Shown: positions 5,973 through 61,053 of the stretch, piece by piece
Numbering within the stretch: position 1 is the stretch's first letter
Layout: every line of letters starts with the position of its first letter
Assembly (NCBI RefSeq): GCF_004210375.1
Contig: NC_134834.1
Span: forward strand, 157,623,290 to 157,687,289
Origin: Tachypleus tridentatus
Lineage: Eukaryota; Arthropoda; Merostomata; Xiphosura; Limulidae
DNA length: 64,000 nt
Direction of reading: 5' to 3'
Notes under the pieces: generated by a model
Databases searched by the model: none
The model's input: only the letters and a program-made list of their open reading frames with translations
What the model was told of the DNA's origin: nothing
Translations under genes and position numbers: made by a program

Positions 5973-6305
5973 AATACATTGTAATCGTCAAATCATTGCA
6001 TAGAAACAAATAAATATTTTGTTATTTAACAAACCAAAGTTTGTGGTTATTAATGAAGGAAAACACTAAAACATTTTCATTTATTGGTAATCGTTTTGGT
6101 TTCCATTATCGTCATGATTGGTATTTTACCATCATTTGGACTGCATAGCAGCAGTTACATTGTAGATTGATATTCATCCATCCAGATACTGTTGATACGA
6201 AGAAGGAGAGATGTATTACTTTTATATTGAATATCATTATAATATAAACAGATTAACCGCATCACCATTTATAAATATAATACAACTTATGAACGAAGAT
6301 TAATT

Positions 6306-9557: not shown

Positions 9558-9691
9558 TGTTTTGTTTGTTTAGAATTAAGCATAAAGCTACACAATGGAC
9601 TATTTGTGCTCTGGCCACCACGAGTATCGAAACCCGCATTTTAGTGTGCAAGTCCGCAGACATACCACTGTTCCACTGGGGGGCTCTTTTC
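9558..9691 (-). repeat. SINE-2 copy
   Basis: The second, shorter tRNA-derived SINE of this window. On the minus strand it reads GTGGAACAGTGGTATGTCTG, GCACACTAAAATGCGGGTTT (the B-box region) and ends in an AATTCTAAACAAACAAAAC-like tail. Its sense strand is the complement of the sequence shown. Confidence 0.82.
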
Positions 9692-11870: not shown

Positions 11871-12554
11871 AGCCAATAAAGAAGAAAAACATATATTAAA
11901 CACAAGTTATTAGTATCTGTGTCAGCTTCGATTCCCCCATCCCCAGGATTTAAATTTTAAACCACGAACACAAGACCGAGAAAGGTATTTTCGTTTAACT
12001 TTTTAAGCAACGTGATGTGAATTTTTAAATGGTCCCTTTCAATTTTACTTTGGATTGTTTATCCTTTTCCTAAAATTCTAATTTGTAAATTATTTAAAAC
12101 TGATAACACCAGGTAATCCAAATTCATTTACGTAATCTGTTAACAATAAGAAAATTGATTATACAACTACATCGCCTAGAGCGCTAGACCACTACAACGT
12201 ACGTCGTAATTCAGCCAGTCTGATGAGCTCTTGTACTGCTGGAGGACTCCTTCGCCATGAATATAGCACATATACTGTGGTTGACACATTGTAAAATATT
12301 CTACATTACTTCTTATGGATTATTAGAATTAATTACTAATGTAGGTTTCCCTCGTTGACTCTGTTTGATTCACTTCTGAAACAAAGAACACTGGCTCGCT
12401 GCGTTTAGACACAAAATGGCTCTGTTCTCTTTTGCCCTAACACATTTTTTTATAATATCAAATATTTTTCAAAATCATACGATTTACACTGAGGGAATTA
12501 CAAACCCTAAAATAACAGAATATCAGTTGAAGAAAGCAACTGTTTAATATTCAG

Positions 12555-12734
12555 CAACATGTTTCGAAATTTTTAAGGACTTTACTACACCAATGAAAAA
12601 CAGCTGCTGAATCTTAACGTTGGGTCAGGAAATCTTGGAGGTCTACATGAATTCCGTTTTGTTTGTTTTTTAGCAGTGGTATGGATTATCTTAGCCCACG
12701 CTTATCTACTAGCTTCTATATATATTTACTCTAG
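12555..12734 (+). pseudogene. nrf-6-like pseudogene: remnant of exon 2
   Basis: Matches exon 2 of the intact minus-strand gene (55602-55772). The acceptor ATATTCAG is kept and is followed by TTTCGAAATTTTTAAG, against TTTCGAAGTTTTAAAG in the gene. The translation 'LNVGSGNLGGLHEFRF' aligns with 'TKVGSGNLGALHGFRF', and 'WIILAHAYL' with 'WVILAHTYM', including the histidine taken as catalytic in this family. A 4-bp loss near 12580 (relative to TTTTCTCTCTACACC) shifts the frame. The end at AG/GTATTA keeps a GT. Confidence 0.8.
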
Positions 12735-14880
12735 GTATTACGTAGTAAGGCTAAAAACATATCTCAAAGTGTAATTTTGTTATTACGTGAATCCGGCTAT
12801 AATTTGAAATAAGTTTATTTGTTTTATAATTCTCTCTAGGCTTTTATATTTAGGCCTGTCAAATATAGTCTAATCATCTAGAAATTATTCGAGATGTGTC
12901 AAGAAGTTATTTTTATTTTGAAATGCAAAAATTTCATGACTCTAGTGCTTGCAAGGTAGATATAGATCATTTAGTAGAGGTAGCCACTAGGGATACCGAT
13001 GATATTTCTATTTCCCTTTCCATTACATGAGTATACATGCAGTCAAGGCGGTACCAAGAGTGGTGCCAGTGATACCTATGAACACAAAGTTGCTTCATTG
13101 AAGACAAATATAGATTCGATTTCTTTGTATGGAAAGGTGCAAGATGTTTATCTCGCATAGAGTGACGTCAACGATTGGTACGGCCCCGCATACAGTTATG
13201 TACTTTTGAGCATTACTGGCACATTTAGGACAAAAACAGAAACGCTGTTTATATTCTTAATTAGTAAAACATTAACTCTATAATTGCATTTTGTTTTAAC
13301 ATATAATCATTCATCTGATGTGTTTATTTTTCGTACATTATGTATACATACTTTCAAGATAGAAAATAAATCAAGAGAGGGTAAATTGTTATTCTTATGC
13401 ACTCTGAAGTTTTATATTGTCACTAACGTATCGAAATAAATATACAAGTATACTGTGATAATAAAGAAAATTTTACGTATTGAAATACGTCATATGTCAC
13501 GAAAGGAATAGTATAGGAAGATGTAGAAGCGCACAATATTAAAGATATCATGTGAATGCCAATACCACAGTTGTTACATATTGACACAAGGTCATCACTA
13601 TGATTTTAATGTCCGATCAATTACAGCAACTGTTCAAAATGTCTTTCTTGCATCTAAAATGCATCACATCTGTGAGGAAACAGGTCCAATATGTCTTCCT
13701 TGCATCCAGAATGCATCACATTTGTGAGGAAACAGATATTACAGTAACAATTCTTGATGAGGAGAAACCCACTAGAAATAAAAACGTAACTTTTTGTTAA
13801 CCTGAAGATGACCTAGAAAGTTTGAAACGTTGTTTATTAGTAAAAGTGTTAAAACCCATACCAACCGTTCTGAGATACATTACAGCAACAAAGTTAATTT
13901 TATTTGGGCCACTTTCTCCCTTGGTATGAAATTGTATGAGACTTCTCACGGGACAACCGTAACTTTAACTGCTCCTTCAACCAAATATCAGCTGGTGTTG
14001 AGTTTGTCAAACAAAATGGCCATTGACGTGGAATGATCCTGTACTGAAAGTGCTCCTCCAAAACATTTTTCTCACACTTATCATTATAGGGGTACCTCCT
14101 ACATGAAAACTATAATTTCTACCATACCTCGTTCCTGTAGCATGGAAATCATACTGGTTGTGAGCATTGCAAGTGTGCATTCAACCTGCTGATATGCCTT
14201 TAAAAAATCCTTGTTCAATGACAATGTTAGCTGTAAAACCACACCATAGTGCTACTCTTGCATTATATAATAAATGGTATATGTGGATTAGTTTCCAATA
14301 AAACGATTCAGTTGTGCGTGTTGATATTTCCAGAAAGGGTGAACTTCTATGCAGAATAAACATGTTGAGTTAAATCAATTTTCTTCGGTGCCTAAAACCG
14401 ATGCAGCTTGTAAGAAATATTCGCAAAGTTGAACAAAGCGTGCACTGTTGCATCTATGTACGTATGTGTTGGCTTATTCCACTATCGCGAGGCTGACCAC
14501 AGCTAGTTGCTAGTACTCACTCTGCCTGTACCGTGCTTCTTACAAGTACAAACTGTCTTCTCGAATTTGTTTTGATAAAACTGCACACAAAAACACTAAC
14601 ACAAGGCCGTCTGCAGACGTTATGGAATTTATAGTATTCCCCAGGACAGATTTGGGATTGATTCCTTTGATATAATAAAGTTTCACGAGTTCGCCTGCCT
14701 TCACATTGGTTCAATTGGTTGAATGAGCTGTATTGCGCTCGACAGGCCCATTTATACCCATAGAAAATATACAAAACAAAAGCTTCAGTGATGCTCAGTT
14801 AGCATGTGATAACTGTAGCATTTAAGACCCGTGTGCATTTTCACTTTGCTGTAACAGATATAATCAAATACTATAAAAGT
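12735..14880. other. No gene recognised; presumed decayed introns of the plus-strand pseudogene
   Basis: Exons 3 to 5 of the duplicated gene would be expected here or a little further right, but I could not find them. The segment contains a two-copy 48-bp direct repeat at 13635-13732 (CTTGCATC..AATGCATCACAT..TGTGAGGAAACAG) and, at 13795-13885, a fragment of the foldback family seen at 6306-6475. The remaining short frames look random. Confidence 0.5.
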
Positions 14881-15222
14881 AGTTAGTTAGTTAGTTATCA
14901 CCATTAGATTCCATCTAGGAACATAGAGCCGCAATCGCTTGCGGATTCTTCAACAAGTATTTAAGTGAGTAGGCTGTTAGCCCACTGCACCGAGCCGTCC
15001 CTAATTTAGCAGTGTAAGACTAGAGGGAAGGCAGCTAGTCATCACTACCCACCGCCAACTCTTGGACTACTTTTTTACCAACGAATAGTGAGATTGACCG
15101 TCACATTATAACGCCCTCACGGCTGGGAAGGTGAGCATGTTTGGCGCGACGCGGGCGCGAACCCGCGACCCTCGGATTACGAGTCGCACGCCTTATGCGC
15201 TTTGCCATGCCAGGCCTACTAT
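14881..15222 (-). repeat. SINE-1, full-length copy of the tail-swap subfamily
   Basis: On the minus strand: head GCCTGGCATGGCAAAGCGCA, B box GGGTTCGCGCCCG, SINE-1 body, then GACGGCTCGGTGCAGTGGGC and the alternative tail ending in AACTAACTAACTA. It shares this tail with 5650-5880. The best reference copy of the subfamily in the window. Confidence 0.87.
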
Positions 15223-16344
15223 AAAAGTATCTATCTATAAATGATGCAACTGTAAATGAACTTATTTTTATCTTCAAAAGCCCGTTCTTTCCTGCGAATC
15301 AAAATGTACATTTTAAATTTTGTTTTTAAATACTTATTCAAGGTTAACCTCTTATTTCAACTGACTGGGCTGGTATCAAGCTCAGATTAATGAGTAAGAT
15401 TACCATTGGAACCGACCATCAGTGGTACCAAGGTCCTCTAACCATTATTACCTTTGACTGAGGTCTGCAGGCCCTTTCTACATTTCTTCTCCTTTTCCTC
15501 AGAACATCCTCACTGTGTTTGCATCCTAAAATCTCTCACTTGTTCTTTTGATCTTGATTATTTATTCCTTCAAAGTTCCAGAGTGTGGAAGTTTATACAG
15601 GAGGTATTGGAAAAAAAAAATTACTTTTATACTGGTTGAAAAGCCTACTGGTCCATATATGCAAACGGAAAGGTAACATACTAAACTTAAAATTATAGAT
15701 GCAGTAATGCTTACTAAAAGCATATTAAAAGTATTTGAAATGGTAGTGGAATTCAAGTTAAGATGTGTTGTATAGATTGATGAAATGCAATGTGCTTTCA
15801 TAACGAAAAATGAACAGAGAATGTTTTATTCAAAGCCAGGAAGCTGAAGGAAATATTTTTATAGAGAAGCAGTATTGGTACTTTGTGAATTTGGAAAAAT
15901 GATGTAGTTATAACTGCCAATAGAAAAGACGTTTTACAGAACACGTATGGGATATGGTGGGAAAATCTAAGGACTGGTAAGTTAAAGGAAAACTCTGGAA
16001 AAATAGATAATGATAAGCAGCAGAGATGGAAGAGAAAAATGGAAATAAGGCTAAGCAGCAGAAGACAAATAGAAGGGTTGTATATAACAGACGTTTTACA
16101 AATTTGATATAAAAATCCAAATAAATTTTGGTATCTAGTCTCCAGTATTAGTGAGGAAATAAAGGAAAGAGCTGGATGAAATAAATACGAGAAGTCTCAG
16201 AGAAAATTATTGAAAAAGAAATGTCACTGAAGCTTAAGGACAAAAATCTATGAAATAATAGCGAGTATAATTATGTTTCATGGAGCAGAAGCTTGGGCCA
16301 TATGAAAAAAGTAGTGTGGTATTATAGAAAGAATTGAGACGAGA

Positions 16345-16517
16345 ATGATAAGATTGTATTGGGAATATCTTTAATGATAAGATTGTATTGGGAATATCTT
16401 TAATGATAAGATTGTATTGGGAATGTCTTTAATGATAAGATTGTATTGGGAATATCTTTAATGATAAGATTGTATTGGGAATGTCTTTAATGATAAGATT
16501 GTATTGGGAATATCTTT
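16345..16517. repeat. 29-bp tandem repeat, six copies
   Basis: Unit ATGATAAGATTGTATTGGGA plus ATATCTTTA, repeated with starts at 16345, 16374, 16403, 16432, 16461 and 16490. Differences are limited to a single A/G alternation (GGGAATAT or GGGAATGT). It arose inside the LINE coding region and encodes a piece of its reading frame. Confidence 0.92.
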
Positions 16518-16708
16518 GAGAGATGATATTGGAAGTAGAGTTGGAGAATGTAAGATTACAGAAAAATTAAGGGAAGCAAGAGTGGGATGGTTTTAATAAG
16601 TGGTAAGAAGAGAAAAAAGGCGTGTAGTAAGAGTAGCATTGGAAACACCAGTAGAGGGACGAAGAATTAGGTAAAACAGAGAACAGGAGGCGAAACGTAG
16701 TAGACAGA

Positions 16709-16945
16709 GATATGAAGGATGTTGGTAGCAAGACGTGATAGGTAAAGATATGAGGGATGATGACAACAAGACGTGATAGGCAAGGATATGAGGGATGTTG
16801 GTGGCAAGATGTGGTGAACAAGAATATGAAGGATGTTGGTGGCAAGATGTGGTGAACAAGGGTGTGAGGGATGTTGGTGGCCAGAGTGGTTGACAGGGGT
16901 ATGAGGAATGTTGGTGGCGAGACGTGATGGATAGGGATATGAGAA
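16709..16945. repeat. 38-bp tandem repeat, about six copies
   Basis: Unit begins GATATGA(A/G)GGATGTTGGT, then GGCAAGA..TG, and starts at 16709, 16747, 16785, 16823, 16861, 16899 and 16936. Copies differ at about 10-20 per cent of positions by eye. It is the distal end of the LINE fragment. In RTE elements this part encodes a short arginine- and aspartate-rich tail, so the array probably began as a duplication of that tail. Confidence 0.85.
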
Positions 16946-17066
16946 AGATCAGCCTCATACCAGAATTGGGTTATGATGAAGATATACCTGATTATCATTA
17001 TGTTACTTTTTCTGAACCTCTTTAGAATAGATACGTAGAAGGTAAAGTAAAAAAGTACAGCAAAAC

Positions 17067-17189
17067 CTACCCCCTGCTAGTACAGCGGTATGTCTCCGGA
17101 TTTACAACGCTAAAATCAGGGGTTCGATTCCCCTCGGTGGGCTGAGCAGATAGCCCTTTGTGGCTTTGCTATACGAAAAACACACATAC
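17067..17189 (+). repeat. SINE-2 copy, well preserved
   Basis: Head CCCCTGCTAGTACAGCGGTA, GTCTCCGGATTTACAACGCT, B box GGTTCGATTCCC, then CTGAGCAGATAGCCCTTTG and an ACACACATAC tail. The best plus-strand reference for the short SINE. Confidence 0.88.
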
Positions 17190-17976
17190 AGCAAAACCTG
17201 GTGGACAAACTTCTATTTCAATAACTTCCTTCCTTCAAGAAGCATGGTGAGTGTTTCTTCTTAGACTATAAACTGAGTTAGATATTTTATGTACTTGGTA
17301 CATTTTTAAATATCAATAAAATATCAACTTAAACTTGTTGGTACACGTGATTACCAGACCAGTTCAGAAATGACAAATAGTGTAAAATAATATTGTACGT
17401 TCAGGTTTCCATAACAACAACGATTTACAAATTCTTTCAATAAACCGCAGAACTAAACATTTGAAGCTAATGATTTTTCCTTGGAACTCTTAGATGAGTA
17501 TTATGTTTGAAAAACCAGCGTATTCTAGCTTTGATATAATAACATTATTATATATTGTTCCGTTTGTTCTTTTTTAAGCACGAAGGTTGTTGAACGGACA
17601 ATCATCATGTCGCAAGGACCGAGTTTCGAAAATAAATTCGAAACAAATTGTTTATCGTATAGATTTAAATATTCATAATTACTCAAATTTTACGTTATGA
17701 CCATTATCTTTTCATCCCTTGTAGCGTAAGTTTCATATACATATATATTACTACGTACCAAAATGTATTATCACGTACCAAAATGTATTACCACGTACCA
17801 AAATGTTACTAGTTTTATCCTGAGCACGTCAGGTGTGCTCTCATAGACTGGAAAATAGTCCCCCAAATCAAGCTTATTTGCAGAATCAAACTCAAATCAG
17901 TTGTACGAGTATTTCAACTTCTTTAGACCCATATTTAAGATGCCAAGTAATCAATATTTAATTGTCTCTGTTTTAG
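17190..17976. other. No gene recognised
   Basis: AT-rich spacer holding one 20-bp triplication (17747-17806, listed separately). It sits immediately before the exon 6 remnant of the duplicated gene and is probably decayed intron. Confidence 0.45.
17747..17806. repeat. 20-bp tandem repeat, three copies
   Basis: ATTACTACGTACCAAAATGT three times with changes only at the sixth and seventh bases of the unit. Confidence 0.88.
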
Positions 17977-18056
17977 TGTGTTTCGTCCTATTGGTATTTC
18001 GCAGCAGACAGGCAGTTCCACCTTAACTCACCACTTATATTTATTACACTCTACAA
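17977..18056 (+). pseudogene. nrf-6-like pseudogene: remnant of exon 6
   Basis: Exactly 80 bp, the same length as exon 6 of the intact gene (50513-50592), and about four fifths identical to it by eye. The acceptor context GTCTCTGTTTTAG is identical and the donor ACAA/GTAGGTGTTT is conserved. The frame is open and reads 'SSYWYFAADRQFH', then 'SPLIFITLYK', against 'SPYWYLAADMQLY' and 'SPVVLITLYK'. Conserved methionine and tyrosine positions are replaced by Arg and His. Flanking intron similarity shows duplication at DNA level. Confidence 0.88.
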
Positions 18057-20249
18057 GTAGGTGTTTCATACTGTGTAAACATTTACTTTAATTTTCTTAA
18101 TAACGTTTACCAAGTTAAAGGTCAGCGGAACAAACCTTCATTTGATATATGAGTGTTCGTAAGGGAAAAGGTAGGGTTAAGCTGTTTAAACATTTACTTT
18201 AATTTACTTTCCAAGTTATTTGTTTACTGACGAATATCAGCATGTTTGTAACAGAGAGAAGAAGCCTTAAGTTACTATAATTATGACTGTTGGTTCTTGC
18301 GCACATGTGGACAAATCAACTTCACATTATTATGGAAATCATTACAAAAGTCAGACTGTATTTGCATTTCTTCTTCCTCGAGAGGAATTTTTTTAAAGAA
18401 TCAGTTTTTTGAATATGAGTTTATGAAATATTGGTCTAAGAGTTCCACTATCTTTCCTCACGGTTGTTAATAAGCAACATGTCGTATTCCTAAGCGTCAA
18501 TAAAGTAACTGCTTGTGAATCTAAGTTTACATTTATGCAAACCCTGTGTATTATGATCATATTTTAGGCTGAAATGTATATTTGAATTTTTAATTAAACA
18601 CGTTTATTACATCTGTTAAGATGTACTTAGGCTAATTTTTGGCATTCTAAAACTTACAATTAAAACGCACAAAACATCGAAACCTGTACATTACAAGATC
18701 ATAGATAAAGAAATTTAAGCAGAGGTGGTTTTCTTCATTACAATGTCTTACATTATTTGAAAAAAAAACAAACGGATTTAATGTGTGTCACGATGACCCA
18801 ATTTAGCTTAATATGACGGATTTCTTAAGTGAGGACTTGTTTTGACAAAGGTGGATGAACGCAATTATTTGCTATAAATATTTTCAAGCCCAGACAAGAC
18901 TTAATAACAATTTATATAGGAGCCACATATTGCTGTAATCAATAGTTTTACCTTCAGTTAACTCTCGTAGTATGTCCACAACTACACTTTGCTTTTTCTT
19001 TCTGACAATCATAACTTTTACTGAACCTCGCTGGCATAAAAATGGCCAATAAATTTTATGTTATACTGATTTTCTTTTTATGAAATCAATGGAAGAGGTC
19101 AAAATTCTTGAAGTTGCTGTTAGCGCAGTTTAAATCACTTTTCGTTGGGTCAGTTTTCCTTTATTATTTAATTGTAGTTTGTTATTAACTTCAGTATTAT
19201 CTTCAATACTGAGTAAATAATGTTATCATGATTTTAAACAATGATTTCTATAACTATTTAAATATAGTTTTGAACCGAAATAAAACTGACCACGCACGAT
19301 AATAATCAGTAACCGCCATTCCTGACATATTTTCTCACCCAGGTCACATTTCGCGTTTTCGACAATACTTGGCTAATACAAATGTAAGCTTTTATGAAAC
19401 TGACTGTAAGAAACGATAATCGGTTTCTTTCAAAAACAAATACATTTATGTCTGTGAAGTTTAAAGGTCAAAACTCATAAAAGTAAGTGTAATTACACAT
19501 GCTGAATTGACGCTGTTTATCTTGTTAAACCCAACAGAGGGTAAGTTGAGCAATTGAATAATACTGGGAAGTTAACGTGACGTAATTTATATAAATTTTA
19601 CTCCATAAGGAGTTTTATTCACGTGACAAACTTTGATTAGTTAAGGTCAATAGTGACAGTCGAAATTCAGTAACGTTTGATAGGCTTTTGTTTAGAGTAG
19701 CAAAAGGCACGCATAACACACCTACCCTAGTTTGGACAGAACCAGTGATGACAACAATTAACTTCAATCGTTATACTATTGATTCTAGTGTTGTTATTTA
19801 ATTATTGTATAAATGCATTACATTAGATAAACAACATAAATAATTAAGACAAAAATTTAGCGAAACAATATACATATTTCCTTTATTTATACACACTTAT
19901 CCAATTCTGAGTCTATTATACAACCAGATACCTTATTGCACTCCAAGAGCATGGTATTAACTCACCACATCACCAGACACAATCTTGCATGGCGACACAA
20001 CATGGAGCCTCATTAATATTCGAGGAAAGTCGCAAGTTCGCTAAGAAAGGGATACAACTAAACGTTACAAAACTAAACATGAGCATCCGGAAAACAAAAA
20101 CTGCATCATTATTTCCAAACACTCAAAACTGTGTTATTTATTGTTCATCTAACACATTTGCGACAAACTCTGCTAATGGGTTGGCAAGCAGACAAATTGC
20201 AGCTCATTGGATGAAATAATTGATAGTGACTAGCTTAGTATATACTGAG
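18057..20249. other. No gene recognised
   Basis: AT-rich. Exon 7 of the duplicated gene would be expected between here and 26.8 kb but was not found. The plus-strand frame 19989-20219 has no family signature. Confidence 0.45.
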
Positions 20250-21330
20250 ATATTATTCTCGTGTTCTTGTTATAGGGTCAGTTATATCTAAGTTAAGTCT
20301 CTCAAGGGGGAGAACTCTGCTGTGGTTATGGCTGATGTGGCCAGTTTTTCTTTGAGTAAGACACGTGATACAATGCCTCACACAATTTATCAATGTCTCT
20401 ATGCAAATGCAGCCATAAAACAAATTCCATTTGTTTACAATGATGTGTAATTCCCTCTACTGCTTTCTGTTGTTTTTTTTATTAGGCAAATTCCAAAACA
20501 TCTTTTGTCATAGAGCTTTGAAGACCTCTAATGGCACCACTGGTTGACATCTGAGTGGTTCGTAAAAATGGTACAGTACGTCATCCTGCACCCTTAACTC
20601 ACTATACAGAGGGCAAATGTTACTTACGCCAGTGCTGTGTTAACCAGTTTAAAATTGTCATGTTTCAACTTCCTGCAAGGTAAGTAATACCTAAGTTATG
20701 CATTTATTTTTAAAAAATCCTCTCCCATTTGTGGAGTATTTCCACAAGCAAACTTGCAACGGTAATAAAACTAGCTTTGTCTAACGAATACAAAGTGTCC
20801 AGAATCTGAAAATTCAAAGAATAATGTAATGTCTCTGGCTGGCTAGACAATCTGTCAGTATAACCATGCTGCTGGATCAGTTAGAGTTTTATTTTTCCGG
20901 TGTATTCATCCACAATGCAATCACTCCTTTCAGATATTTGAAGGTCATGATCAATTTTAGTAATACATGACCTACTAAAAGGTGAAATGTCTGGCATAAA
21001 ATATGAGCATTTGTGAGTAGTTAGCGTATAACATATACAGTTACAGGCTCTACGTCAGCTTTTGACAAAAGTGCTGTTATTACAACTGGCAACAGTATGA
21101 AAAACGAATTGACAGTCCTGAGTAGGGTGATCCAGTATCAGTTATTCAACCAAAGTATGCTTAAAGAACTGAAAATCTCGTTTGTATTCTTCACATACCT
21201 GCATCCGTACAAAATCAATAACAGTCTTAGTCAATACAAACAGTAGTTTTGATATTTTGGGAAAGACCGGCCACAAACTATCGATGTGAAATGCTGAAAG
21301 TTTAAGTTATTTCATTATATTTAAAGCGTG
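20250..21330 (-). mobile_element. Decayed Ty3/Gypsy element (RT end, RNase H, integrase start)
   Basis: Read from right to left on the minus strand. About 21310-21250 gives 'DSLWPVFPKISKLLFVLTK', the end of RT. About 21200-21090 gives 'CEEYKRDFQFFKHTLVE' and 'LILDHPTQDCQFVF', matching EEC..AF..LK..L...PIL..P.....F at the start of RNase H. About 20600-20400 gives 'LRVQDDVLYHFYEP' and 'VVPLEVF', and lower 'RDIDKLCEALYHVSYSKKN' and 'SSPLERLNLDI', which fit the zinc-binding and linker part of integrase. Many lesions, no LTR found. Confidence 0.65.
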
Positions 21331-22079
21331 GACTATTCCTTAATCATTTTAATCTATAGGGTGAATTGCTGCTTCTTCTTTGTCAGCTACGTGACTACAA
21401 ATCTCTACTACCATGTGCATTAAAACACACTTTCCTTGTTCTAATTACAAGCGTAGATATATTTTCATGTTTTCGGCTGTGGTTTAAAACATAAAACCAA
21501 AGACCAATGTGTCATATTCATTGAGAAGACATCTCTCCCATTGGAGTCAAAAGTGGAAGATTAGTTACATGTATTAAATTGCATGGTGCCAAATACATAC
21601 AATATTTCTAGAGTAATTATAGCAGTCTTAGGCCTAATTTTAAGACTTCACTTGACAATCTGTTAGTGAATATATCAATGAGTAGAAATGGCTTTTGATA
21701 CAACATTTTAAATTTCTCCACATAAGTAGATAAGTTTTCATGAGGCCCTCACATTTAAAGTTTTATGAGCTATGTCCTTTGGATTGCTTGGTTCTCATCA
21801 GCATTGAAACTGTAGCACAACTAAATGAAAACTGCTATTCTGTGGTCAAGTTTAATCTTGTCCGAATTGCTGCTTCAAATGTCCCTGAATGCATCCATTC
21901 AAAGTAACAGTTTGCCCGAAATGCTTAAGAAAATGGTTCAAATCCCATTTTTTTTCATTTTTTCTAATAAAAGCATGTTGACCTGCTTCAAATTATCACC
22001 ATACCAAAATGTTAGGACAAACAGGCGCCAACAATAGACTAAATGAAAGGCGTCCAACGCAGGGCAATCCACACTTATT
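21331..22079. other. No gene recognised; possible extension of the Gypsy element
   Basis: Further minus-strand RT should lie here if the Gypsy copy were complete, but I could not recognise it. A short plus-strand frame at 21825-22037 shows no domain. Confidence 0.4.
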
Positions 22080-22520
22080 TTCAGCTGTTCTTTGCGAAAA
22101 AGATATCAAACTTCAGAGAACAGCGGTAAAAGATCATTCCATAAACTATTAATGTTAGTGCGCAACAGAAAAGACTCCTCTAATTGTGTAAGATGCACAG
22201 ATGTTCAACAAGTGAGGACTGGCAGAAAGATATACGGTCCGATGATTCATGGTTTACATTTTTCCACACAGATGGGAGAAGACAGATCTGTGGACATCCA
22301 CACAAATCATTTGATTCCTCACCTCTTATGTTGTCCCAACTGTTTATGTCTTTCATAGTGGAGTAATGATTTGGGGCATGTTTTTCTGGCACACTTTGGA
22401 CTCCTTGAACGAATGTCTTAGCTTACATTGGCATTTCAGTTTAAGCGCATCCAGTAGTGCTTTATCTATATCTTGTGGTGGAAGGCTTCATCTGAGACAA
22501 TGTTTATCATCATCCTCAAA
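22080..22520 (+). pseudogene. Tc1-like transposase fragment (pseudogene)
   Basis: The translation gives 'VRNRKDSSNCVRCTDVQQV', then in a shifted frame 'EDWQKDIRSDDSWFTFFHTD', and 'SGVMIWGMFFWHTLDSL'. These match the Tc1 order R..H..W...DW..V..SDES.F....DGR, then G.VM.WG.....G...L. The first catalytic aspartate lies in RSDDSWF. At least two frameshifts. No inverted repeats were identified and the C-terminal third is not recognisable. Confidence 0.75.
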
Positions 22521-22847
22521 TTGTGCGTGCATAATTTGGAAAACATAAAGGAGACTTCAAAAAAATGTTAGAAGCACGTTTTTTCGTAGGGGAAGGCATT
22601 TTCTCACTCACAGCTCACAAAAATCGAAACATAATCACACCTGTTCGGTGCATTTTTAAGTTAGAGACGGTGATTGAAAATCAGATATTTTGTACGAAAG
22701 TCAACAAAAACAAATTTTGTTATTATATCCTAATTACACCTGCACGTGATAATTAATTTCACAATACACATGGTCGGGTGTGGTCAAATGATTAGCATGT
22801 TCGTGTTCTGAATCCTGTAATGCATGATTTGCCTCTGTTTCTGCAGG

Positions 22848-23121
22848 CCCGGTATGGGTAGGTAGTTAAGGCACTCGACTCGTAATATTGGTGTCGCAGA
22901 TTCGAATCTCCGTCACGCCAAATATGCTTGTCCTTTCAGCCGTGGGGGCGTTATAATGTGACGGTCAATCCGACTATTCGTTGGTAAAAGAATAGCCCAA
23001 GAGTTGGCGGTGAGTGGCGATGATTAACTGCCTTCCCTCTAGTCTTACACTGCTAATTTAGGGACGGCCAGCGCAGATTTCTCTTGAGTAGCTTTGCGCG
23101 AAATTCAAAACCAAACCAAAC
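22848..23121 (+). repeat. SINE-1 copy, full length
   Basis: GGCCCGGTATGGGTAGGTAG head, B box AGATTCGAATCTCC, complete body, tail AAACCAAACCAAAC. Confidence 0.9.
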
Positions 23122-24349
23122 TGTTTCTGCAAAATCGCGCTCTGCATTTTGGTGCCGTGAGTTTAATTTATATAATGTTGCCAGATCGGTTTCCCTCCTT
23201 TTTTGAGGTTTTTATAAATATTCAGTGGAGAAAAACCTATAGCTTTTTTTTTCTATAAGACTGTTTTATGAAAATACGTTTCAAAACTTAAATATATGCA
23301 ATAATAGGGAAAAGTTGAAAGTGTGAAAGAAATCTTAATTACTATGGACTCGTGATAAGGCATGAAAAGTTTGGTTACTGTTTTCTTCAATGCCTTTCTT
23401 AAACTCATTCGTTGACCAGCACGTAACAATTATTTTCTGTGTCATCATGTAATAATATATACATTTAAATACTGAAACAATACAGTGAAAAGTATAATAG
23501 GAAATAGGACCAATATTAAAGTGAGTTTTCACTTTCTGTTGTTTTGCTTAAGTAAATTTTTCCAGTTGTTGATCATTTATTTACGCCTACATGTACCTTG
23601 TGTCAAGCACCTTTGGGTCATTATTGTGTTATTATTGTAATTCAGTTATTAATGTATTATTATCGCTATGATATTTAAATATATTACAGCTACAAAATCA
23701 TTTGTTTGATAGTGATACTGAACCCGAGTTAATACGTAGTTATTATATTAGGTCTAATAATAATATTATAGCCCATTTCAACACTATGGATTGTTACAAA
23801 CTATTGATCAATAAATAAAACTGGATCTAATTGTTAAAACATATATTTATTTGTTGGGTTTTGGCAAGATGGTTGCGACAAGGAAGATGATACCGTTCGT
23901 GCAAAGTTTTGAAATTATTATTTCTGGCACATAAAAAAAGGAACTTACAAAATCATATGAAGTCAAAACTGTATTTCCTCATTCAAAACTTGATGTCAGT
24001 TTCTTTGTACCTCTTCAACAGTGCTATCTGTGAATCACAAGTAACCAAATATTTTTCTGTTCTTACTACTCACCATCATATAGATAAGCTAGATAATAGT
24101 ACAGTTTCTTTGAACAAAAATACAATTTCGTCGAGATAAATGTATTGATCTAATAAGGAACATACTTGCTACAAATTAGCACGTATAATTATTGTCTAAC
24201 GCTGGAAAAATAAATACAATTTAATTATTAACAAATACACTAATGCAACTATAAAGAAGTGTTCAGCTATCACAGTACGTTACTTCAGCACATCAAGAAA
24301 TGAACATTTACAATGTAATCTATGAATTTTTGTCACTTGTTTTTGATCT
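23122..24349. other. No gene recognised
   Basis: AT-rich spacer. Short frames at 23335-23532 (minus) and 23909-24139 (plus) have no recognisable features. Confidence 0.45.
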
Positions 24350-24466
24350 TTCGTTGGAAGGTAAGCGCAAAGCTACGTAATAGGTTATCTGTGCTCTGCC
24401 CACCACGAGTATCTAAACCCGGTTTCTAACGTTGGAAATCTGCAGACATTTGTGCCAGTGGATGGT
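24350..24466 (-). repeat. SINE-2 copy
   Basis: Plus-strand text GCGCAAAGCTACGTAATAGG, CTGTGCTCTGCCCACCACGA, GTATCTAAACCCGG is the complement of the SINE-2 body and B box. The head end is eroded. Confidence 0.75.
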
Positions 24467-24689
24467 GATGTCAATTGAAGATTGCACTGTAGGAACAGTC
24501 GCTAAATGTATAATGATATGACAAAAATATAATTACCACTGACAAGTAGGATTGGCATTGACGTTGATGGAATAAATAGTATAATGGAGCCAAAATTCAG
24601 ATTTTGTCATTTAAAAGACAGCGATCCTCACCTAATGGTTGTAAATTGTATCTTACTTTCACTTCGTTTAGCCACAGAAGTACTACCTG

Positions 24690-25140
24690 GTCATCTAACA
24701 ACGTTTTCAGACATTGAACGGCACAAACCTCTATAAATCAACCTTTCTATGTGATACACATCAACTCAATTGCGGACATGTTATGAACAGGGCATTAACA
24801 CATTTGGATGAATTGACTCTTGTTTCTCAGATGGCGAAAGACAAAATGCTCTGTACTGTAGAACAGATAATAAGTACACATTATATGACATAAACTCAAT
24901 CATTTGTATTTGATGTTATTATACTGAGAGCTAACAAAGAGGGCCATTTAACAGAATGTATAAAGCAGATGATCCTACACTTGCTGAATGTGTTGTCATA
25001 AAGATTAAAATAAAAGAAAAACCTATAATTAAAAACAAGCATTTGAATGATGAAGACAATTACAAAAAGTGCAGATGATTAATGATTTAATTGGTTACTA
25101 TAGAAGACTATTGAACAATGATGTCATGACATCACTTGGA
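24690..25140 (+). mobile_element. Possible Ty3/Gypsy reverse transcriptase remnant
   Basis: Weak plus-strand similarities in Gypsy order: 'TSINQPFYVIHINSIADML' near 24730 (like ..PI...PRR.P......V..ml) and 'LIGYYRRLLNN' near 25090 (like FLGL.GYYRRFI.N). Heavily decayed, and the first match could be chance. Limits are approximate. Confidence 0.35.
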
Positions 25141-26687
25141 ACAATTCTTCTTTGAAGCGCATTTGATGCTAATTAGTTGCTTTTATTTTTCCTAATACTT
25201 AGGTCTATTTGCTACAAAACTACACACTGGAAATGGAAAGCTAATTGAGGTGAAGTCAGACTGTAAATATTTTTAGTGGAGTTTACATGGCAAGTAAAAA
25301 CGAGGTTAACAGAAAAGATTAAAACAATTTTAAATGTTTGTTCCACCTAACGCTTTGTCCGTTAATAATAAGCTTTCTTTTACCCAGTTAGTGGAAAATT
25401 TCACATTCACGATGCCGTTTTACAACTGTTCAAAATGTTGAATTTTAAGTCAATGTCATAGAAGAAACGAAGTCCTTAGGAAAATCGATTACAAAGCTTT
25501 GATACCACTGATTTTTAAGTTATGTTTACCAATGTCTGACGCAGATGTGAAACATGTTTGCCCACCTTTTTTGATATCAAAACCAAACACAGAAGCAGGC
25601 GAGATATAGAATCTGTTACTGTAATAGTGACGGCCCAATTGGATTACAGCTGCACAATTTATAGCAAAGATTGCAGCGCCCCCTTCCCTAGAAAAATTGC
25701 TGTAAAATCTTAATTTATTAAAAGTCTCAGATGAACCGGAAATAAACTCTGAACCGTGTCATGACGCATTATAGCATTGATATTCTGTAGCAGGTTTCTT
25801 TGAAGCATTAACTGTACATATATGAGTCTGTGGTACTGTATTTTAGGTCATGAGCACAATGTTTTTTCCGATTTACTGTATGTATTACTGATTTCATTAT
25901 AATGTATTTAGGCTATGTGCACTTACTGTGGGTACCAGGCTGTATTCGTTTAATTCAACTTCTATTTAGACCATGTGCTCACAGTTAATTACATATTTCG
26001 AATTAATTTTGTTGTACACATTAATAATTTAATTTTAGGGTACCCATTTCAGATTTGTAATCAAATCTATGACCTTAAATTTGTAAATTTATTTGCACAT
26101 AGTACTTTATTTTGCAAGTTAAAATAAGTTTCGTACTATTAAATGTTTATTTTTTGTCAATGATGTTCATGTTTTGTAAAACATACATTAAATATGTGGA
26201 TCACTTTGGAGAAAAACGATATTTTTTCTCTCGAAATCTGCAGTGAAATCCTATTATTGTGTCAGATAAGAGTAACTTAAAGAGTTGACGGGGAACATTG
26301 TTGGACTTACACCTTTAGTTTATCATGTAAAAACAAACAAACACGAAATTCACAAAGAAAAATTGCGTTATGGATTTCAATGTTTTTGTGACTTTTTTAT
26401 AATGACTTAAGGTTTTTGTATATATTTCTAATTTAATTCAGAACATCAAAAATTTCGCTCTCTTTTTAAATTTTTAAAAGTAAAGTAATACAAAAATAAC
26501 AACATCAGTTCAGTCATTTACTTTAAAGTTAAGAAAATATATATAGAAGTTAATATGCCATATATATATATATAAAATATATAATATGTGTTAATCCTAA
26601 AGTGGCTTATAATCTGTCTTTAATTTTATAGAATATTTATTGATGTTTTCACTATGGGTTTTACATTCTATAACGTTTCAGAACGTC
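25141..26687. other. No gene recognised
   Basis: AT-rich, with TA microsatellite around 26540-26590. Probably intron of the plus-strand pseudogene, judged only from position. Confidence 0.45.
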
Positions 26688-26808
26688 CTCCGCTGGTACA
26701 GAGGTAAGTATACGGATTTACAGCGCTAAAATCAGTTGTTTGATTCCCCTCGGTGGACTCAGCAGATAGCCAGATGTGGCTTTGTTATGAGAAAACACCC
26801 ACACGCTC
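26688..26808 (+). repeat. SINE-2 copy abutting a pseudogene exon
   Basis: CCTCCGCTGGTACAGAGGTA, GGATTTACAGCGCTAAAATC, GATTCCCCTCGGTGGACTC, and a tail ending ACACCCACACGC. The SINE ends within about five bases of the acceptor of the exon 8 remnant that starts at 26811. Confidence 0.87.
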
Positions 26809-26810
26809 AG

Positions 26811-26931
26811 AACACGCGTAGAAACAGATGATTCTATCTTCATGTGACCTTATACTGAACTCGGTTCGTGTTTCACTGGGCTGGCCATGGGCTACCTGTT
26901 GTGGAAAAACAGAAATATCAAACTGAAACCA
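26811..26931 (+). pseudogene. nrf-6-like pseudogene: remnant of exon 8
   Basis: Exactly 121 bp, the same length as exon 8 of the intact gene (44690-44810). The acceptor GCTCAG/AAC is kept. The translation 'VETDDSIFM', stop, 'PYTELGSCFTGLAMGYLL', 'NRNIKLKP' aligns with 'IETGGYIHIRPYTHLGPYC', 'MATGYLL' and 'RRNIRLRP'. The conserved arginine before PYT is a TGA stop (CGA to TGA). The donor is GTAATC in place of GTAAGT, which is weaker. Confidence 0.87.
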
Positions 26932-27455
26932 GTAATCACAGAGAAACTGTTTACTATTCAAATTGTAGTAAAATAACTCTTGAAGAATTGTTGTTAGTAG
27001 CAGTAGTATAGAGTTACAAAAACAAATATGAAAACGTCTACTTTCACTATCTTTTTTTATATGAACTGAACAGCGCTCTAATAGAGTCGAAAATAATGTT
27101 GAAACGAAACGGCCTGATCTGAAAAATATTTTAAGGAATTTATTATTTATGTAAATTTAAAAAAAACAACAATTGTCTCAATGCTTTGGGCACTAGAGAT
27201 AAAACACTAAACAAAAATAGCCGGAATATAAAGACGAACTGAAAGCATGTATGATTTTCCGAAAACGTGATGCATGTATATTTTAAACCGTTGTGTTTAT
27301 AGCAATACCAGTACTATATCACATAAACGTAGTATTTGTATCTTTTCAAAGAACTAAAGTCCTTCAGCTGTACTTGTATCATATTATTAGCTTTCTTAAC
27401 TGTTGTACAAGAAGAGAGAAAAAAGTTTAGCTCAACTGAAAGTGTTATGACAAAA

Positions 27456-27580
27456 TGTAAAGATGAAATCATCGTCGTGGAAGATCTTCACTGATCATGG
27501 CCGACTGACCTACATTGTACTTCATACATCCGTTTGCTAAAAATATCAGGGTCACCACAAGTCAGGCAATTTATTATTTG
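27456..27580 (+). pseudogene. nrf-6-like pseudogene: first copy of exon 10
   Basis: A diverged copy of exon 10: TCGTCGTGGAAGATC, CGACTGACCTACATTGTACT and TCATACATCCGTTTGC follow TTGTCATGGAAACCA, CGGCTGACCTACATGACT and TGATACATCCGTTGAT of the gene (43371-43513). It has frame-breaking changes and no clear splice sites. It lies about 230 bp before a second, better copy. Borders are approximate. Confidence 0.68.
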
Positions 27581-27686
27581 TCCCTCACTATACTGATATA
27601 CTGATAGTATAGGGTAGAATGGCATATTAATCACTGTTCTGTCACGATTTAAATGAAACATTCAAATTAACGACTGTAATACCTAC

Positions 27687-27828
27687 GTTCCGTGAATACA
27701 CTATTGTCATGGGAACCATTCACCGTTCTTGGAAGACTGATCTAATGTCTTACTTGATACATCCGTTGGTTATATATGTCAGGGTTGATACAGTGAAGGA
27801 AATTCAGTTTTTCAGCCTCTTTAAATAG
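27687..27828 (+). pseudogene. nrf-6-like pseudogene: second copy of exon 10
   Basis: 142 bp against 143 bp for exon 10 of the intact gene. GTTCCGTGAATACACTATTG matches GTCCTGTAAATGCACTGTTG, and TGATACATCCGTTGGTTATA matches TGATACATCCGTTGATTATA. Lesions: the acceptor dinucleotide is AC at 27685-27686 where the gene has AG, a 1-bp loss within GATCTAATG shifts the frame, and the last codon is TAG (CAG in the gene). Similarity continues into the next intron (CGGTGACTCGTGTGAATG). Confidence 0.9.
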
Positions 27829-28208
27829 GTATTTGAAATACATTATATGCACGGTGACTCGTGTGAATGTGTCCCATTTTTATTTGTGGGAAAAAGAAAT
27901 TGCTGATATTAAATGCAATATAAGTTCCTTTATTTCCAAACTTTAGGTGAGTAAAAGGCTCATTGCCCATATTTCATGTTTACTCTAACTAAATCGTAAA
28001 AATATGTTTATCAGACATGATTCATTTAAAGACTTCATTTTCAGGCGTATAAAAAAACACAGACTTTGTATTGAATCTTTATAAGTTGAGTTCATCTTTT
28101 TGTTTAAAAAATATTCTCACTCTTGAAAAGTACGAATCTGGCTTGAACGTTGAGTTAAAACATATTTTTATTACGTTTAAGAATCTCATGAGGTCTTTCA
28201 AGAGCAAG

Positions 28209-28297
28209 TCTAAGGAATTATAACGCTATAATCCAGTGTTCGATTCCGTGGTGGACACAGCATATAGCTCAATGTGGTTTCGACCCTAAGACAAACA
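28209..28297 (+). repeat. SINE-2 fragment, diverged
   Basis: ATTATAACGCTATAATCCAG, GTTCGATTCC, GTGGTGGACACAGCATATAG and a tail ACAAACAAACAC. The front of the head is missing. Confidence 0.7.
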
Positions 28298-29305
28298 AAC
28301 ACTCGAGGGTAGAGTTAATTATTAATCTTCCATTTTATATAGCATTAAGTACTAACGCAAGTGAACATGTTATGTTTAAAAATACTCCACGAAGATCGTA
28401 GTGTGAATTCTCAGCTTAGTCATACAGATTCCTACCATATTTAATGCTGTAAGTAGGCATAGCGTCGGTCCTTCGGCTTATGTTAGAATTTCCCTTTGTA
28501 AAGCTATAACTATCTTTTTTTTCCTCAACCAAATAGTCAAAACTCTGTTCAGATTTGGACGAAAGAGACAGAAGAAAGTTAGGGCTAAGCAGTATTTCAG
28601 CATATCGTATAGACACAAAAACAACATTGTTGTAATTCCAAAATTATGATAAACTCATGGAACAAAGAAAAATATACATTAGTCAAAATGTTTTTTTGTC
28701 GTGTATATTTTTATAGAACAGCAAATAAAATACACCTTTAGAAAAATTACATGAATATTGTGTAAATGCGTTGAAGATGAATTTCGTAGTTTTATGTTAA
28801 CTTCATAAAAATTAGTATTGGTAATGTCCTACTGCTAGACTCCATACTTGCGTCGTCGCAACTTATTTTAGACGCCAGATTCCTCTAAAGTTACATTATT
28901 AGAAATGTTTTACAGATCTTCATTGGTCACAAAATGTTTTTAAAACTTCTGCTAATACTCAATTTATTGATGTTAAGTTGTTCAACAAACCTTGAAACTA
29001 CGATAGTATTTGAAACTGGCAATTAGCGCCTTTGTGTTCCATAAGTATACATTCATTTTTTTTCTTCATTATTACTTTCTTTAATAGTATTGATTAGAAA
29101 GATTAATGTGTATATTATTTTATTTATTTTAATTTCTATTATTACGTTTTTATCATACAATATGTTATGCATTGTTACCTTAATTTATGGACTAGGCTGC
29201 TGAACCTCGTGAGATATTATTGGGTTTATGACCAAAAACGTTATCATCGACAATGACTTCTAATCTTTACATGTAACAACGTAATAAAAACTGCAAAAAT
29301 ATACA
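28298..29305. other. No gene recognised
   Basis: AT-rich spacer. The terminal exon of the duplicated gene would be expected somewhere after 27.9 kb but was not found. Confidence 0.45.
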
Positions 29306-33802: not shown

Positions 33803-33896
33803 TGTTTTACAGCAAAGCCACTTTGGGCTATCTACGGAGTCTACTACGAGAAATCGAAGTCCGGAGTTTAGCGTTGTAATTCAGTATACTTACCGA
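33803..33896 (-). repeat. SINE-2 copy
   Basis: Plus-strand text TTTTACAGCAAAGCCACTTT, GGGCTATCTACGGAGTC, TTTAGCGTTGTAATTCAGTA is the complement of the preserved copy at 17067-17189. Diverged in the B box. Confidence 0.75.
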
Positions 33897-35211: not shown

Positions 35212-35477
35212 TGCATGGCCAGATGGTTAAGGCACTCGACTCGTAATCCGAGGGTCGTGGGTTCGAATCACCTTCACACCAAACATGCTCGCCCTTTTAG
35301 CCGTGGGGGCGTTATAATGTGACGGACAATCCCACTATTCGTTGGTAAAAGAGTAGCCTAAGAGCTGGCGGTGGATAGTGATGACTAGCTGCCTTCCCTC
35401 TAGTCTTACACTACAAAATTAGGGACGGCTAGCGCAGGTAGCCCTAGTGTAGCTTTCTGCGAAATTCAAAACAAACC
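35212..35477 (+). repeat. SINE-1 copy, full length
   Basis: CTCTGCATGGCCAGATGGTT head, B box GGGTTCGAATCACC, complete body and tail GCGAAATTCAAAACAAACC. Little diverged. Confidence 0.92.
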
Positions 35478-35484
35478 AATGGGT

Positions 35485-41284: not shown

Positions 41285-41524
41285 TCATAATCTCGAAATT
41301 ACGACAATGTTTTCCATTGTGTCTGAAGAACACTTTGAAGTACCACTTGGTATTGCATGGCCATTACTTTCTTCTTTTTGTTTCACAGAGTTTTGTATAG
41401 ATTTTTGATTCTTTGGTTGTGGAAGAAGAAATCGTTCCAGCTTGGTAAAGGGAACTTCAAATACCAGGTGAAGAAACGACGCCACGTTCATTGACAACAC
41501 AAGATACGTGAGAAATCTGCAGAC
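41285..41524 (-). CDS. nrf-6-like: nrf-6-like terminal exon 11 (240 bp with stop)
   Basis: Acceptor TTTTTTCTCCAG/GTC in phase 0, exactly matching the phase of the preceding donor. Encodes the last transmembrane helix ('FLTYLVLSMNVASFLHLVFE'), the family motif 'EVPFTKLERFLL', and a hydrophilic, serine- and lysine-rich tail ending 'MENIVVISRL' before the stop. Confidence 0.93.
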   Translation of the reverse strand, partial: VCRFLTYLVLSMNVASFLHLVFEVPFTKLERFLLPQPKNQKSIQNSVKQKEESNGHAIPSGTSKCSSDTMENIVVISRL

Positions 41525-44500
41525 CTGGAGAAAAAATAAATACACCAATAAGAGTTTGTTCGACTGTATATTTTCAACACAATTACTGACCACCCACCTA
41601 AAGGGAGGCTAAAGAAACGGGTTAGCATAACACATAAATTCCATTGTGTAAACAACAAACAAAAATAAATAACTAGATTTGATTCTATATAACCCTGATT
41701 GAAGAGGAAAATTAACAAAACATTCTTATAGAAAAAAACTTATAAAATTTTGGAAGTTGGTAAAATTTCTTTGATATAAATGTACATCAGGCAGGTGATA
41801 ATGCTGCCTATGTGGAACCCTGTCGGATTGTTCATCGCAGTGGTATTTTGAATATCTTCTCAATCGGTCACCATAACTTTACTATACAGCGTTCCTTATT
41901 ATAGCAATATCTATGTAATGACTGAGTCACAAGTTCTACGAATGCCTGCAAATATCATAGCATACATTTGTTCTTTTTTTGCTTGTTTTATATTACATGA
42001 TAACTCTAGAACCAAAACAATGGCAACAAACAATTTCACTGGGGTAACTTTGTTTAAAGCGGGGTATTCGCTTTTATAAGTATTATTAATAACTAGTAGC
42101 ATTTGTTTGTTTTTGAATTTCGCACAAAGCTACTCGTAGGCTATCTGCGCTAGCCGTCCCTAATTTAGCAGTGTAAGACTAGAAGAAAGGCAGCTAGTCA
42201 TCACCACCCACTGCCAACTCTTGGGCTACTCTTTTATCAACGAATGGTGGGATTGACCGTTACATTATAACGCCCCCACGGCTAAAAGAGCGAGCATGTT
42301 TGGCGCGACGGGGATGCGAAATAGCGCCCCTCAGATTACGAGTCGCACGCTTTAACACGCTTGCCCATGCCGAGCCACTAGTAGTAATTAAAAAAGGCAT
42401 AATTCTAGTATGAACGATGTTATCATTGCCCCTTGAAGTGAGTTTTATTCATATTTGGTGTGCATTTGAAAAGTTTAAGTACAGGGTGAAATAGGAATTA
42501 CTAGGTAATGAGGTATAAACTAATTATTACAGGGCCCGACATGGCCAGGTGGGTTAAGGCGTTCGACTTGTAATCCGAGAATCGTTGGTTCGAATCCCCT
42601 TCACACCAAATATGCTCGCCCTTTCAGCTTTGTGGGCGTTATAATGTGGCGGTCAATCCCACTATTCGTTGGTAAAAAAGTAGCCCAAGAATTGGGGGTG
42701 AGTGGTGAGGACTAGCTGCCTTCCCTCTAGTCTTACACTGCTAAATTAGGGATGGTTAGCGCAGATAGCCCTCGTGTAGCTTTTCGCAAAAATTGAAACC
42801 AAACCAAATTATTACAGTTGGAACCTCATTGTGTTTAGAAACTGGTCATAGATGCAACTTTCCTGTATTTATTGTAACACTGCATTAAAAATAAAAACAA
42901 GTAAAAACCTTTCCTAAAGGAAGTAATGTAGGGATGGCTAATTTCAATCCTTGAAAAGGAATGCAAACAAGATGGTAGGGGTAGGAATTTGGACCATCTC
43001 TACATAATATTAAATGTCATCCCTACCATCTTGTTTACATTCCTTTTGCAAGGATTGATATTAACCATTCCTACATTTATTTCCTTTTAGGAAAAGTTTT
43101 CTTTATTTTATATCAGTACACGGGAAAACTTTAACAAGATAAACACAGCTTATACTCAAACGTTTTATTATTAAAACAGTTACAAGTATTTAACAGAGAC
43201 GCTAATTTTACTAAGTGACATCTGTTAATTAAAAACATTTTGAAGTTCTGTGGTGATAAGAAGAAAAATGTTCCAAGTGGTGCGTTTACCAACTTGATAT
43301 AAAAAACTCCTTTAATAAACAATGTGACGCATTCACATGAGTCACCGTATATAGAGTGTAAGCCAATTACCTGTTCAAAATGGCTGAAGAACTGATTCTC
43401 CCTCACTGTACCAACCCTGATATATATAATCAACGGATGTATCAGGTAAGTCATGTAGGTCAGCCGTCCAAGAACGATAAATGGTTTCCATGACAACAGT
43501 GCATTTACAGGACCTAGTAATCACAGTCATGAATAAAAGTAGCATTCAATTTGAATCGATACATTGACATTTGTTAATGATACATGATAAATATCTCGAC
43601 TTTTTTGTAATTTCATATCGTACTTTTAGTAAACTTACCTCCATATCCATAAACACAAGCACACGTGATCCAAGCTAACCCTAAAGTAAACCCAGTTCTG
43701 TGGATTGAAGCATATATGATTCCAACTACAGCATTTGGTGTGATTCCATTATGCCAGTCATAAGCTCCAAAAACTACAGCTGAACAAGAGACAGTAGTTA
43801 CGATCCAGCCAATGGCCACAACAATCTGAAATAAAACAAAAGTTCTCTAGCGTATCGTTAGTATCTGGTATATTAATACTTAGGCTACCCATACTGGGAT
43901 TAAACAACAAATATAATACACGAAGTTACTTCACACATCAGTACTGTGTGCCACATTAACGATCCATAACCACTTACTGGGATCAAACAACAAATGTAAC
44001 ACAGGAACAATGATATATATTATATTTTATGAGTGAAAAAAATTTACTAAAGCAAGATAATTTCGCTTTCACTCTTTGCCGTGTCATTAATTGTTCTTAA
44101 TTATTATTTTGCTAGCTTTAGGGAGTTTTGAAAATCACGATGATGAGCAGGTAGTTTAATGACCAAAAGTTTATTATAAATTAAAAACTATATGATTAAT
44201 TAGTCAGCGCTTTTGTTCGTCGGTTTGTCTATTACTTCAGTGTTATCAGTACTGAGTTTGTATCTCATCGAAGTGCTATAGACACAAAAAAGTATACTGT
44301 GATACGTGAAAATTAACAAGTGATTATTTATCGTTGTTTGTGAAGTTAGGCATATTGTTAAATTAATTAAACCGTTAAAGGTTGAAAAACTGTTAGCTGA
44401 AGAAACACAAAGCCCTTTGTTATTGTTAACTGGACTGAACTTTGAGTTATTTTATATCCAACAATCCAAAAGTAAAAACAACAACAACATAAAGTATCAC

Positions 44501-60950: not shown

Positions 60951-61053
60951 GGTCTTTATCACTTACACAGACTTTTTGCAGCATCTGAACTCATCTTGTG
61001 AATCTAACAGTTCTAGCTTTTGGAGTCTGAAGAGTGGCCAAAAGCGAATGAAT

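Follow-up and report, generated by a model that had tools for sequence, protein, structure and literature searches.

In C. elegans, nrf-6 belongs to the acyltransferase-3 (OAC) family, for which one report counts 63 genes, including four pseudogenes, with tandem paralogs among them (PMC12799122), and nrf-6 of krill is treated as a lipid-transport gene in the available part of another (PMC11294593). In the mangrove horseshoe crab, extensive tandem duplication is likewise described for several gene families in the accessible passages of the source (PMC7210998). The locus considered here is a 64,000-nucleotide stretch of the Tachypleus tridentatus genome (the window; C10:157623290-157687289 of the 2.17-Gb assembly) carrying an intact nrf-6-like acyltransferase gene on the minus strand (G1) and, on the plus strand, a series of broken exons (the relic) that a first-pass annotation had read as a hidden, decayed and inverted duplicate of G1. 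The homology, order, junctions, lesions and even substitution pattern of the relic argue, with a probability of roughly 0.88, that it is a decayed unprocessed (DNA-level) duplicate from the nrf-6-like cluster that lies inverted relative to G1 in a tail-to-tail arrangement.

Relic exons were sought by BLASTN of the gene and relic intervals and by Smith-Waterman alignment of each G1 exon with 30-bp flanks. Together, these alignments recovered all five plus-strand segments that the first-pass annotation had assigned, in order, to exons 2, 6, 8 and 10 (twice) of the minus-strand gene and added exons 5 and 11, such that the plus strand reads exons 2, 5, 6, 8, 10a, 10b and 11, with six of the 11 G1 exons in sequence (Table 1). 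Set against 200 simulations, each 41 kb long and matched in trinucleotide composition, searched with the 11 exons and their flanks, the relic scores of 203-609 compare with best-per-exon means of 92-123 and an overall maximum of 177, with a fitted P of 0 (below precision) for relic exons 2, 6, 10b and 11, 7e-14 for exon 8, 2e-9 for exon 7, 3e-8 for the stronger exon 5 piece and 7e-7 for 10a. Further relics in exon order had been predicted, and those of exons 5 and 11 were recovered, with exons 3, 4 and 9 not found and exon 7 out of order. For exons 1, 3, 4 and 9 nothing rose above the null on either strand of positions 1-41000 (lowest P 0.08, exon 1, minus strand), and profiles built from the gene and the relic detected no further copies in the window at E < 0.01. 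Searches of the genome at the DNA level with relic exons 11 and 8 returned self-matches only, and as they missed the G1 exons as well, such searches are too insensitive to prove absence.

The relic alignments cross exon ends, with up to ~57 bp of adjoining intron aligned, and this alignment of splice junctions with neighbouring intron excludes a spliced retrocopy, in keeping with the earlier proposal of a copy made at the DNA level with its introns, inverted and tail to tail. A stop or an indel was found in 7 of the 8 relic exon pieces (exon 5 counted as one, exon 7 included). Relic exon 6 has neither and keeps its acceptor and donor motifs, while relic exon 8 has no indel, one in-register stop and both splice motifs, such that the lengths of 80 and 121 bp reported for these two exons are correct. 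Within relic exon 2 there are a 4-bp deletion and insertions of 8 bp and 1 bp, the first piece of exon 5 has one in-register stop and two deletions with the exon 5 donor kept, and exon 11 has four in-register stops and three indels. Exon 10b, the better of the two exon 10 relics, has the length reported for it (142 against 143 bp, a single 1-bp deletion), with a stop at its last codon, its donor kept and its acceptor lost. The decay by stops, frameshifts and a lost acceptor was as the first-pass annotation described, while its statement that no piece exceeds 60 codons needs correction, with the longest plus-strand stop-free stretch per relic exon reaching 65 codons (exons 2 and 10b) and 80 codons (exon 11), and at most 39 codons when counted from the first ATG within these stretches. 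The relic is predicted to be incapable of making the full protein now.

The exon 5 relic is split by a 118-bp insert resembling a short interspersed element (SINE), with the flanking 13-bp copies of TACAGCAAAACCT being perfect, like a target-site duplication, and the alignment of the second exon piece beginning at 17175 within the insert. Both 13-mers share the same differences from G1, suggesting that the insertion took place after the exon had begun changing. Stretches resembling the insert were detected by BLAST in the window at 26692-26803, 28208-28301, 33808-33895 and 9584-9671.

A search of 100 kb either side of the window identified another intact paralog, G2, which lies 45 kb upstream of G1 at 113080-101062 (window coordinates, outside the window), with all 11 exons, lengths equal to those of G1 save for exon 1 (107 against 116 bp as modelled) and an Acyl_transf_3 domain (PF01757, E 9.9e-22). 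Over exons 2, 5, 6, 8, 10b and 11, changes specific to the relic relative to G1 and G2 occur at 158/902 exon sites (0.175) and 84/478 flank sites (0.176; Fisher P = 1) and are spread over the codon positions as 55:50:53 (P 0.88). At the same sites, changes specific to G1 number 60/902 in exons against 68/478 in flanks (P 9e-6) with a codon position distribution of 15:12:33 (P 0.0016), while those specific to G2 are distributed 28:15:42 (P 0.0016), with 85/902 in exons against 59/478 in flanks (P 0.096). These counts show constraint on G1 by both measures and on G2 by codon position, the exon-flank contrast of G2 not being significant. The equal change in exons and flanks together with the even codon positions suggests that the relic lost constraint at or near its origin. 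As far as ~900 sites can tell, the relic bears no sign of having been functional for a time once the split had occurred.

The view that the relic duplicates this very gene stands in part, in that it appears to be a duplicate of a cluster member, with G2 about as close to it as G1. Three-way counts were made over exons 2, 5, 6, 8, 10b and 11, with 10a and 7 excluded, giving exon p-distances of 0.285 (relic-G1), 0.313 (relic-G2) and 0.204 (G1-G2) and flank p-distances of 0.402, 0.383 and 0.349, respectively. Relic exon 10 matches G1 at 81% and G2 at 79%. In a tree built from exons 2, 5, 10 and 11 and including three further paralogs, the relic, G1 and G2 grouped apart from those paralogs with 97% ultrafast bootstrap, and a relic outside G1 and G2 was weakly disfavoured (approximately unbiased (AU) P 0.037). 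The relic is best described as a probable duplicate of a member of the small G1/G2 cluster, its parent being G1, G2 or their common ancestor. A narrower origin, as an inverted copy of G1 specifically with G2 more distant, is a tentative option to which the proximity of relic and G1, the slightly shorter exon distance and the exon sites shared with one paralog only (85 with G1 against 60 with G2) all point, with the relic plus G1 giving the best four-exon tree by the small margin of delta log-likelihood 0.68. The AU test does not separate this tree from that joining the relic to G2 (P 0.60 and 0.45), the flanks favour G2 (68 shared sites against 59), relic exon 2 matches G2 equally well (113 bits against 111 for G1) and a tree of exon 2 places the relic with G2 at only 59% and separates the trio of relic, G1 and G2 from the remaining three paralogs at only 50%. 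In addition, the exon sharing with G1 may only mirror slower change in G1 than in G2.

A number of observations sit uneasily with a single simple duplicate. The exon 7 relic at 6092 is displaced, though it lies in the relic's sense. In the pairwise comparison of relic and G1, codon positions 1 and 2 differ at 139/588 sites against 92/296 at position 3 (P 0.019), a contrast that looks like constraint until the constraint on G1 itself is removed. Exon identity to G1 is uneven, from 0.65 (exon 8) to 0.83 (10b), which is not simply predicted by one copy of one age, such that gene conversion or more than one copy could be involved. Private changes number 32 in 10a against 2 in 10b, which a local doubling of recent date would hardly explain. 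Alignment in the middle of intron 10 barely exceeds chance, and the flank figures lean towards similarity because only alignable stretches were measured. The remains of at least two dead copies, with 10a, the displaced exon 7 relic (6092) and a weak match to exon 7 in the G1 sense between G1 and G2 (84755-84846 in window coordinates, E 4.5e-6) derived from others, would account for the twofold exon 10 with its very unequal decay and for the disordered exon 7. We regard this as possible but doubtful, as rearrangement and exon doubling would be enough, and a profile search of 264 kb (E < 0.01) revealed no second relic of exons 2, 5, 6, 8 or 11 and did not recover the match at 84755-84846; a genome search with G1 exon 7 found only G1, a G1 copy at 128 Mb (see below) and G2, and missed the 6092 relic too. 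A processed (retro-)pseudogene is highly improbable, with no observation in its favour, and was rejected on the retained introns, the relic exons being up to kilobases apart with splice motifs and intron flanks. Unordered matches due to chance or to a shared domain only are more improbable still, with the displaced exon 7 as the sole point in their favour, and were rejected since the relic scores exceed all 200 simulations, six exons are ordered and splice junctions are included.

As a decayed unprocessed duplicate, the relic would have arisen when a genomic stretch was copied, exons and introns included, and took the opposite orientation, coming to lie tail to tail with G1. The copy would have been under no measurable constraint from or soon after birth, probably having been incomplete or promoterless from the outset. 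Later decay would have involved substitutions, small indels, the SINE-like insertion in exon 5 and the loss of exons 1, 3, 4 and 9, with exon 7 either relocated or part of another fragment.

The age of the split was estimated as half the Jukes-Cantor relic-G1 distance divided by a borrowed neutral rate of 1.37e-9 substitutions/site/year, given for the mangrove horseshoe crab in passages of its genome report and calibrated on 135 million years (My) to the Atlantic species (PMC7210998). Third positions (distance 0.401) give ~146 My, the pairwise flanks ~131 My (5′, 0.358) and ~109 My (3′, 0.298), and the three-way flanks (p 0.402, ~0.58 corrected) ~210 My. The branch leading to the relic in the four-exon tree, 0.40 long, gives ~290 My. 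Very roughly, the split would date to ~110-290 My, with two of the five values below 135, a borrowed rate and biased alignable flanks. On these figures the relic may predate the separation of the living horseshoe crabs, and it is conceivable, at somewhat less than even odds, that it represents a deep-time neutral fossil that lost constraint near birth, before that separation. If so, Limulus, Carcinoscorpius and Tachypleus would be expected to share these broken pieces next to their orthologous gene, and the relic would be usable as a non-coding clock over >100 My.

Table 1. Coordinates of the intact gene G1 and of the relic pieces within the window.
Feature	Position	Strand	Remarks
G1, intact nrf-6-like acyltransferase gene	41285..56329	minus	11 coding exons, one open 508-aa frame, Acyl_transf_3
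G1 exons 1-4	56329-56214, 55772-55602, 54670-54577, 54214-54122	minus	
G1 exons 5-8	53083-52918, 50592-50513, 48260-48144, 44810-44690	minus	
G1 exons 9-11	43825-43639, 43513-43371, 41524-41285	minus	
Relic exon 7 and some intron 7	6092..6253	plus	upstream of relic exon 2
Relic exon 2 and flanks	12533..12784	plus	aligned to G1
Relic exon 5, first piece (exon positions 15-116)	16971..17068	plus	ends in TACAGCAAAACCT at 17056-17068
SINE-like insert, 118 bp	17069..17186	plus	between TACAGCAAAACCT copies 17056-17068 and 17187-17199
Relic exon 5, second piece	17187..17283	plus	starts with repeated TACAGCAAAACCT; donor GTGAGT
Relic exon 6 and flanks	17948..18087	plus	exon 17976-18055, 80 bp
Relic exon 8	26807..26947	plus	121-bp exon
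Relic exon 10a, the more decayed one	27424..27568	plus	78/113 aligned exon bases identical to G1
Relic exon 10b, the better one	27631..27884	plus	118/142 exon bases identical to G1
Relic exon 11 (last) and flanks	28370..28691	plus	beyond interval 12555..27828

All 10 introns of G1 have GT and AG ends, with an AG preceding exon 1 and GT-type donors following all of exons 1-10, and the G1 protein matches Acyl_transf_3 (PF01757) in Pfam (E 4.3e-21; 75.8 bits, cut-off 31). No further 5′ coding exons of G1 were found within the window. The NRF domain, which we take to be PF20146, is presumably N-terminal and encoded by 5′ coding exons of an nrf-6-like gene; a loose motif scan of both window strands gave no match to it. 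Among viral contigs, a scan with the protein revealed no relative. In intron 10 of G1, ~1.28 kb at 41737-43012 holds two head-to-head SINEs, and parts of this segment match G2 intron 5, inverted. Intron 10 measures 558 bp in G2, 590 bp in the relic and 570 bp in G1 without the ~1.28-kb part. An alignment of 1103 columns at 60% spanning this intron had seemed to tie the relic to G2, and this link was dropped when a three-way alignment leaving out ~1.28 kb of G1 showed the middle to be near random.

A protein search of the genome scored 85 of 312 candidate places, all 85 of which matched, with family matches among the scored places on contigs C10 (157, 128, 21 Mb and elsewhere), C6, C3, C2 and more, and on this basis the nrf-6-like family is evidently large in the genome. 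A genome search for Coagulin (PF02035) gave 19 matches, every one above the cut-off, of which four on C11 fall within 6 kb and jointly span profile positions 1-174 apart from 71-74, while none of 14 control genomes gave a match; coagulogen is not known outside horseshoe crabs, and the result suggests a member of that group. Two nrf-6-like exon sets of near-equal score ~210 kb apart (C10 ~21.494-21.531 and ~21.728-21.741 Mb) are perhaps a recent duplicate pair. A block 29.6 Mb away (C10 ~128.075-128.131 Mb) shows 95.9-99.8% identity to window positions ~39957-64000 and onward to ~88856, as probed with 13 segments of 600 bp, of which eight were in line and five unmatched. This block includes a G1 copy, with repeat-type matches only at the places of relic exons 11 and 2, and would represent a segmental duplication that arose recently or else a misplaced haplotig. 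A 73-bp satellite (29 copies, 61053-63173) is ~7.4 kb longer there by the spacing of flanking matches.

Other repeats include a SINE of ~280 bp, tRNA-like by eye, with dozens of copies in 264 kb (e.g., 42102-42372, 49980-50249 and 35213-35479). Neither ARAGORN nor Rfam, the latter searched at its gathering scores, gave a match in the window. Tc1/mariner-like transposase remains at 57734-59282 (HTH_Tnp_Tc3_1, 21.4 bits; cut-off 21.1) are bounded by inverted repeats at 57734-57943 and 59082-59282. Pfam gave no match for two fragments resembling long interspersed elements and for one of two transposase fragments.

Among the papers listed by searches on nrf-6 and horseshoe crab genomes (including PMC7815833), with subscription journals mostly outside the coverage, none appeared from its title or partial abstract to concern such a relic, and the available passages on mangrove horseshoe crab clusters name no nrf-6-like cluster or pseudogene of one (PMC7210998). 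Recognition of the relic amends both the number and the orientation of genes in a cluster that an open reading frame scan sees as empty. If the age holds, it would indicate that pseudogenes can stay readable for >100 My in a slowly mutating lineage and would provide a neutral sequence with which duplications and splits among horseshoe crabs could be dated. As in the C. elegans OAC family, so far as the passages seen describe it (PMC12799122), these are acyltransferase-3 genes with tandem paralogs, the difference being that in the horseshoe crab one dead copy lies inverted beside two intact ones. As a pseudogene the relic is ordinary, since tandem duplicates and pseudogenes are both known in this family, and only its possible age adds interest. 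It resembles other duplicated (unprocessed) pseudogenes in being an intron-bearing genomic copy with stops, indels, a neutral pattern and functional relatives nearby, and differs from typical ones in being inverted and tail to tail, with four exons lost and one displaced, and in being apparently very old yet still readable.

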